A DNA stretch of 64,000 nt from an uncultured Pelagibacteraceae bacterium (GTDB taxonomy: Bacteria; Pseudomonadota; Alphaproteobacteria; Pelagibacterales; Pelagibacteraceae), in contig CACOQN010000001.1 of the NCBI GenBank assembly GCA_902629285.1, positions 1 to 64,000 of the forward strand, given 5' to 3'. Numbering within the stretch: position 1 is the first letter of the stretch; the number at the start of each line of letters is the position of its first letter. The translations under genes and the position numbers were made by a program. Below, piece after piece: positions 63,249 to 64,000 of the stretch. The notes under the pieces were generated by a model, which was not told where the DNA came from, did no database searches, and saw only the letters and a program-made list of their open reading frames with translations.

Positions 63249-63863
63249 TTAATATTGTTGAGTAATAACGATTATAACGGCAATTATTACTAAAACACTC
63301 GCAGAAATTGTATTAATTGTTTTAGGATTTGCTTTTATCCATCTAATTAGTTTTTGTGCAAGCAACGCATAACCAATTAAAGATATGAAGTCTAAAACTA
63401 TATAAGTTGAAATTAAAATAAGGAATTGAGCTAAATAATTTTCGTTAAAGTCAATAAATTGAGGAAATATAAAAGGAAAAAACATCCAAGCTTTTGGACT
63501 TGTTCCTGCAACTAAAAAACCATCTTTATAAAAAGACAAATTACTTTTTTTTATTTCACTTTTGTCAGTAATATTTTTTGGCCGTGATTTATAAATATCG
63601 TAAGCAAGATATAACAAATAAATTATTCCTACCCATTTAAAAATGTTTAATATTGTTGAGCTTTCAGCAAAGAAAGATCCAATTACAAAAATTACTAAAG
63701 TGGCTTGAATTAAATTTGCTGTAACATCTCCAAATGCAGACCACACGCATTTTCCAACTCCATAATTCATAGAATATGAAATAATCACAATTCTTGGAGT
63801 TCCAGGTGTAATAAATAAAAAAATTATGATCTGTAGATATAGAATAAAATCTAGGGGGAGCAT
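63249..63863 (-). CDS. LysE/RhtB-family amino-acid exporter (second copy)
   Basis: A 204-residue, about six-segment LysE-family protein. The signature is TPGTPR instead of TPGPNN, and the GDVTANLIQATLVIFVIGSFF segment is typical of the family. Export of amino acids or analogues is expected. The ATG stands directly behind the U-tract of a strong hairpin with no visible Shine-Dalgarno sequence, so expression may be controlled by that leader. Separated from livK by 87 nt. Confidence 0.85.
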   Translation of the reverse strand: MLPLDFILYLQIIIFLFITPGTPRIVIISYSMNYGVGKCVWSAFGDVTANLIQATLVIFVIGSFFAESSTILNIFKWVGIIYLLYLAYDIYKSRPKNITDKSEIKKSNLSFYKDGFLVAGTSPKAWMFFPFIFPQFIDFNENYLAQFLILISTYIVLDFISLIGYALLAQKLIRWIKANPKTINTISASVLVIIAVIIVITQQY

Positions 63864-63918
63864 AAAAAAAGATAGTCCTTAAAAACCGGGAGCTAAAGAT
63901 GGCTAAGAAGGACTATCT
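63864..63918 (-). promoter_or_regulatory. leader hairpin with terminator-like U-tract ending at the LysE start codon
   Basis: Perfect 11-bp arms AGATAGTCCTT (63870-63880) and AAGGACTATCT (63908-63918) enclose a 27-nt loop that itself holds a GC patch and a small AGC/GCT hairpin. On the minus strand the stem ends in a run of U residues that touches the ATG at 63863. It may be a small riboswitch or attenuator, or the terminator of a short upstream RNA. Confidence 0.6.
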
Positions 63919-63980
63919 AAGACATAATATCAGAGGTTAAAAAAAATGCATTAAATTTTTTTTTCAAATATAAAGGATTT

Positions 63981-64000
63981 ATGAAAAAAAAAGGTCACAG
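63981..64000 (+). CDS. possible start of a plus-strand gene cut by the window edge
   Basis: An ATG at 63981 preceded by AAAGGA (5 nt spacing) opens a frame beginning M-K-K-K-G-H that runs off the end. Only six codons are visible, so this is a guess based on the ribosome site. Confidence 0.25.

Follow-up and report, generated by a model that had tools for sequence, protein, structure and literature searches.

RF01814 'rhtB' of Pelagibacter as a predicted antisense RNA to the translation start of a small Lys/Arg-rich peptide

Pelagibacter cells are among the most numerous in the ocean and have few transcription factors. Hfq-dependent trans-encoded sRNAs are antisense to the Shine-Dalgarno sequence and AUG of a distant mRNA, while the loop-contact antisense RNAs of plasmids offer a closer likeness for an RNA that presents a long loop on a stem as its seed. 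In Chlamydia, the stem-loop sRNA IhtA uses its loop 1 to occlude the AUG of the hctA mRNA, which encodes a small, basic protein of histone-like kind (Grieshaber et al. 2015; PMC4355289). As portrayed in the parts of that report on which we draw, IhtA is experimentally supported, has three predicted stem-loops and makes a functional contact of 6–7 nt without touching the Shine-Dalgarno sequence.

The closest described RNA is a motif from Pelagibacter itself. In the passages of Meyer et al. (2009; PMC2704228) that deal with it, the 'rhtB' motif (Rfam RF01814) appears with three others as a further potential motif; it is a bulged hairpin whose loop is conserved and which shows signs of covariation. 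Some 1250 metagenomic examples are reported there, mostly beside rhtB and also before proC, livM or livK, and about half of them carry a U tract. These passages describe the motif without a function, propose neither a target nor a mechanism for it, and leave open whether it is a regulatory or a termination signal. A literature search on the names of the motif yielded no paper besides this one.

The window analysed here is a stretch of 64,000 nucleotides from an uncultured Pelagibacteraceae bacterium, and the element lies close to its right-hand end. The features referred to below are the following.

63864–63918, minus strand: predicted stand-alone sRNA, RF01814 'rhtB' (81.2 bits), about 55 nt if the U tract is its end
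63908–63918, minus strand: 5' arm of the hairpin (perfect inverted repeat and stem covariation)
63870–63880, minus strand: 3' arm of the hairpin (perfect inverted repeat and stem covariation)
63888–63907, minus strand: loop segment CUUAGCCAUCUUUAGCUCCC, antisense to the ribosome-binding site and AUG of a tiny ORF
63898, minus strand: covarying loop position, C in this genome, pairing as C:G or U:A with the target
63864–63870, minus strand: run of 7 U after the hairpin, a possible intrinsic terminator
63924–63932, minus strand: extended −10 element TGATATTAT, with a start predicted at 63917–63918 from sequence conservation only
63946–63951, no strand assigned: palindrome ATGCAT, a possible shared −35 or operator site
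63249–63863, minus strand: LysE/RhtB-type exporter gene (PF01810), directly downstream of the RNA and not its constant partner
63981–64000, continuing to genome position 64277, plus strand: start of a divergent DUF2805 (TIGR03643) gene, ATG at 63981

The physical description given in the initial annotation holds: the two perfect 11-bp arms enclose a 27-nt loop and end in a U tract (63870–63864), a likely −10 sequence, TATTAT, is found at 63929–63924 of the minus strand, and LysE starts at 63863. A cmscan search assigns the minus strand to RF01814 with 81.2 bits, above the gathering score of 55 (E 7.9e-17), while the plus strand reaches 18.5 bits only. The element and the published motif are the same, belonging to one family, and the HTCC1062 locus in the published description likewise lies between rhtB and a divergent hypothetical protein (PMC2704228). 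The hairpin is therefore a known RNA of Pelagibacter that had been left unexplained; relative to the description in those passages, what is added here is its strand, its promoter element, its independence from LysE and a target in trans.

The predicted fold is stable on either strand (−18.3 kcal/mol on the minus strand, z −3.2, with 0 of 200 shuffles as good; −18.1 kcal/mol on the plus strand, z −3.4), so that fold energy by itself cannot assign the hairpin to a strand. The substitutions in the stem point to one. Across 258 loci, the nine outer pairs occur in eight arm combinations with no non-canonical cell; double-sided changes convert T-A to C-G and T-A to A-T, and every one-sided change yields G.U when read on the rhtB-sense strand, A.C being absent. 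Among 220 distinct loci, G.U is found in 27, A.C in none and double-sided changes in ten. Since these G.U pairs would read A.C on the opposite strand, the pattern of substitution identifies the functional molecule as an RNA of the window's minus strand, the rhtB-sense strand. Compensatory changes among relatives, whose absence would have refuted the initial annotation, are present in both double-sided and G.U form.

Loci were gathered by family search, by an exact-pattern scan that required the exact loop stretch and gave at least 120 matches, and by genomic place. Two were dropped from the locus counts: L093, a chance pattern match in a ribosomal-protein locus, and L183, the G317 hairpin described below. 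L059 was also left out of the 258-locus stem analysis and of the promoter and U-tract counts; this contig is binned as Cytophagales, carries Pelagibacter-like genes together with the RNA and is probably mis-binned. Removal of 39 duplicates left the 220 distinct loci, 212 of them with at least 300 nt downstream. In the family search, run with stricter filters, RF01814 was matched in 229 of 397 Pelagibacterales genomes, of which 228 belong to the window's genus. The remaining genome, G317 of genus g5, gave a sub-threshold match (34.7 bits, L183:1501–1563) that was rejected as a different hairpin lacking the loop; this hairpin can trigger RF01814 family searches. Among viral contigs the exact loop pattern had no match, giving no sign of a viral carrier.

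Elsewhere in the genome, a tiny, Lys/Arg-rich ORF has a Shine-Dalgarno sequence and AUG (GGGAGCUAAAGAUG) to which the near-invariant loop is complementary. A search of eight genomes, complete or nearly so, placed the loop complement GGGAGCTAAA at the start of this ORF in every one, as well as in the RNA gene itself. The other GGGAGCTAAA matches were discarded as targets, as they sit inside or opposite long reading frames or, in one case, in no clear frame; further matches to GGGAGCTAAA or GRGAGCTAAANATG, namely L302, L322 and four inside or opposite long frames, are likewise not the target. In the window's own genome the site lies on the minus strand of another contig (G000 contig C3:35968–35977), where the ORF reads MPKKRKKAAKKTKKKAKKKAKKAKKRRRR (L283:1410–1499). 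The target peptide has 20–35 residues; taken together with its counterparts in three related genera, the ORF encodes 20–50 residues. It is present in the genomes of the genus that were read and was confirmed by reading in 81 genomes (35, 16 and 30 in three sets). Its ORF lies between an acyl-CoA synthetase-like gene, identified by reading, and a CarD-like gene with the Pfam domains CarD_C and CarD_TRCF_RID. By eye, L283 also shows a TTGACA box, a hairpin on the 5' side and another, terminator-like one around the ORF; the hairpin of the 5' UTR (CGAATCA / TGATTCG) precedes the target ribosome site, and its 3' half, GATTCG, recurs in most leaders of the first two sets read. The ORF has no match in Pfam or NCBIfam, and a literature search for a lysine-rich SAR11 peptide gave none evident by title among the matches listed. 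Judged from its composition, the peptide may be histone-like.

The predicted duplex between RNA and target reaches −38.8 kcal/mol for the whole RNA, its own folding ignored, and −32.5 kcal/mol for the loop alone. Against the background of 2906 window segments (mean −10.75, sd 3.9), the best value besides that of the RNA gene's complement is −26.0. The pairing in the window's genome includes one C.C mismatch in codon 2, which is shared by other genomes whose peptide starts MPK, and G324, like loops of the 'TAAG' form, has mismatches in the pairing with codons 2–4.

A natural exchange at one loop position bears directly on this pairing. The list of loop variants includes ten genomes with U in place of C there, and the target pattern WGRGAGCTAAANATG was sought in these ten and in 22 others. 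The target was found in 28 of the 32, each encoding a Lys/Arg-rich ORF; another four matches in this set do not represent the target. The facing target base is A in all nine U genomes that have a target, whereas it is G in every C genome with an exact target match (93/93; 7 + 19 + 67). The last of these groups comes from 80 searched genomes out of 101 further C candidates: 67 of the 80 have the exact target, all with G, and the ORF is encoded in each of the 30 loci that were read. Of the genomes searched, the exact target is present in 23 of 23 with a reported completeness of at least 95%. It was missed in 13 of the 80 and in four of the 32, and seven of the 13 misses fall among the 39 genomes with completeness of 90% or more and contamination of 5% or less. 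Because the searches used exact patterns, diverged ribosome sites would be missed, and such a pattern cannot separate assembly gaps from diverged sites among the misses.

In a protein tree built from 35 members of the genus and two outgroups (G200, G351, G287 and G252 being left off for lack of data), the U state needs three changes, yet a single U clade is not rejected (p-AU 0.106), so that the U state represents one to three events. With an idealised leader, a loop C facing a target A loses 6.4 kcal/mol while U facing G carries little penalty, so that the exchange could pass through a G.U intermediate. The loop thus shows conserved, covarying complementarity to the mRNA of another locus, and the predicted pairing is supported by covariation at one position in one to three events.

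In 16 of 20 genomes of the genus that lack an RNA match, the target is present and carries G. We read these as cases of assembly gaps at the RNA locus, though some may be true losses. As far as exact search can show, the target ribosome site appears to be uniform in the RNA-bearing genus; it is absent, as an exact site, from 20 genomes of other genera. In g2 (two genomes), g3 and g4 a Lys-rich ORF with other ribosome sites lies beside the CarD-like gene, and none was seen in the stretch examined in four f2 genomes and G317. The four g2–g4 genomes gave no RF01814 match and have no such RNA upstream of DUF2805. Of 20 places matching the ribosome-site pattern in g2–g4 and G317, none resembles the element in a crude arm scan, three of them showing arms of 8–9 pairs with G.U allowed. 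The g2–g4 searches covered the DUF2805 upstream region and the ribosome-site pattern matches, and diverged copies may lie elsewhere. As the outgroup genera have the ORF and no such RNA was found in them, the peptide seems to be older than the RNA.

These observations lead us to propose, with considerable confidence, that the element is a stand-alone, trans-acting antisense sRNA that blocks translation of the histone-like peptide without Hfq. Transcription would start from the extended −10 promoter at the 5' base of the hairpin, as suggested by sequence conservation, and release an RNA of roughly 55 nt consisting essentially of one 9–11 bp stem that presents the 27-nt loop. Within it, some 20 nt would then pair, with at most a few mismatches, to a single distant mRNA, from its Shine-Dalgarno sequence across the spacer and AUG into the first codons, covering the ribosome-binding site, stopping initiation and possibly exposing the mRNA to decay. 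Hfq was found in none of eight genomes by a search whose control was positive in five of 14 known genomes; given this, pairing would probably rely on the exposed loop and the long complementarity. The RNA resembles the Hfq-dependent sRNAs in being trans-encoded and antisense to a Shine-Dalgarno sequence and AUG, but differs from them in that no Hfq gene was found in 8/8 genomes and in having a long, stem-presented loop as its seed.

The nearest proven functional counterpart known to us is IhtA, a loop of which covers the start codon on the message of a small basic protein (PMC4355289). In our system the loop is complementary to the AUG and the peptide is Lys/Arg-rich, while DNA binding and repression are predicted. 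The RNA differs from IhtA in having one stem-loop and a contact of about 20 nt that includes the Shine-Dalgarno sequence; its pairing is predicted here from sequence, whereas IhtA has experimental support (PMC4355289). The likeness would be one of function, and no homology is claimed or expected.

A wider and more tentative proposal, to which we would give rather less than even chances, is that Pelagibacter controls the compaction of its chromosome through an antisense RNA that works without Hfq and is dedicated to a protamine-like peptide, that this RNA arose in the genus by inverted duplication of the peptide's translation start, and that the arrangement is convergent with IhtA/HctA of Chlamydia. 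Were the peptide to pack DNA, the nucleoid state of a streamlined free-living bacterium would be under RNA control, in parallel with Chlamydia. RF01814, without a known function since 2009, now has a testable candidate target, and the RNA and tiny ORF would form, judging by our literature searches, one of few sRNA-target pairs proposed for SAR11. The overlooked lysine-rich peptide would be of a kind that trypsin-based proteomics tends to miss.

The genes around the RNA bear on whether it also acts in cis. Its steadiest neighbour is the divergent DUF2805 gene, present in 207 of 213 loci with enough sequence; LysE is next to the RNA in 169 of 212 and was not found in 43. Where LysE is present, its start lies an estimated 4–14 nt past the hairpin. 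In loci without LysE the next gene is ProC-like, outer-membrane-like, LivK-like, AzlC-like or other, several of these being assigned by sequence reading and not by family search, and in five distinct loci (L022, L032, L192, L203 and L226) a convergent SDR-like gene follows. In L092 and L199 the RNA lies directly before a glutaredoxin gene, and DUF2805 was not found nearby.

A promoter element upstream of the hairpin is kept in most loci, whether or not LysE is present. In 80 distinct sequences sharing one DUF2805 spacing, the pattern TG n TATwwT occupies −15 to −7, and a second spacing group (16 sequences) has a like element two bases farther out. The position of this extended −10 places the predicted transcription start at the first bases of the hairpin. 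TGnTAwwwT is present in 157 of 178 LysE loci, 30 of 40 others and four of five convergent loci, compared with 83 of 5220 random windows; by sequence, 34 of 45 loci without LysE retain a predicted promoter of the RNA's own. A U run (at least six U in the first 8 nt after the hairpin) is seen in 101 of 223 loci: 88/178 with LysE, 12/40 others and 1/5 convergent.

The alternative that survives best is a dual element, in which the trans-acting sRNA also serves as the 5' leader of lysE in LysE-bearing lineages and couples exporter and peptide levels. The tight spacing between hairpin and LysE, which leaves little room for a separate lysE promoter before the ATG, is consistent with it, and AAGGA in the 3' arm could act as a Shine-Dalgarno sequence. 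Given that LysE is dispensable to the RNA, that no sequence signal of selection on lysE regulation was found and that the spacing from AAGGA to the start varies, we regard such a dual role as somewhat unlikely, while the RNA may still influence LysE where the gene lies some 4–14 nt downstream.

The trans-acting RNA accounts for these loci better than a purely cis-acting riboswitch or attenuator of the kind suggested in the initial annotation, in which the hairpin would sense the cargo of LysE and terminate transcription or hide the lysE start. The short distance to LysE where it is present, its place as next gene in 169/212 loci and the U run in part of the loci led in that direction. The RNA, its loop and its promoter element nevertheless persist where LysE is gone (43/212) and where a convergent gene follows. 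In G317, of another genus, a LysE with 54% identity over 204 residues is encoded divergently from DUF2805; 25 nt separate the two starts and no such hairpin is present, so that a fixed upstream position on the same strand is wanting. A conserved terminator platform is wanting too, the U run being present in just 88/178 LysE loci and 13/45 others. The near-invariant loop is matched with covariation by the ribosome site of a distant gene, and a trans target accounts for its conservation. Of the structured leader proposed before LysE, the structured minus-strand RNA with a promoter-like site at its 5' end stands and its dedication to LysE does not. The distribution of neighbours argues that the RNA is not a dedicated LysE riboswitch, which is now a very improbable reading, and RF01814 seems to have taken its name from a gene other than its partner.

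Still less probable is that the hairpin is solely an intrinsic terminator or a DNA inverted repeat bound by a protein, both of which are noted in the parts of Meyer et al. (2009; PMC2704228) that discuss the motif. The perfect inverted repeat and the U run in part of the loci would suit either. The annotation had raised the terminator of a minus-strand gene beyond 64000; the next gene, DUF2805, lies on the plus strand, which leaves no minus-strand gene immediately upstream to be terminated. A DNA site would, moreover, be hard to reconcile with one-sided changes that are all G.U on one strand and never A.C, or with a loop that is asymmetric and near-invariant. A dif-like or other DNA site was set aside given this clear strand signal. 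Least credible of all is a small plus-strand ORF or leader peptide (GGGAG-ATG, reading MAKKDYL), for although the window has a good Shine-Dalgarno sequence and ATG there, the frame shifts after the third codon in the element's second common form, the peptide end varies freely and the G.U signal points to the minus strand; an RNA antisense to a ribosome site must itself show such a likeness on its complementary strand.

A viral carrier was also considered and rejected. The target's ribosome-binding-site pattern matched six viral contigs, none before an ORF of the target kind: four matches precede other phage-like genes, three of them capsid-like by reading, and two precede an 11-codon ORF (MPKIWSRGRKK). 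As none stands before such an ORF, these matches are taken as a chance resemblance among strong ribosome sites. In the viral contigs L407, L409 and L411 the string GGGAGCTAAAGATGGCTAA precedes a phage gene in a capsid-like setting.

Between the RNA and DUF2805, a hand count puts the palindrome ATGCAT 16–17 bp away from each of the two divergent −10-like elements, where it might serve as a shared −35 or operator site. Its bases are 97–98% conserved in the largest spacing group (80 sequences) and mostly about 75% conserved in another (16 sequences).
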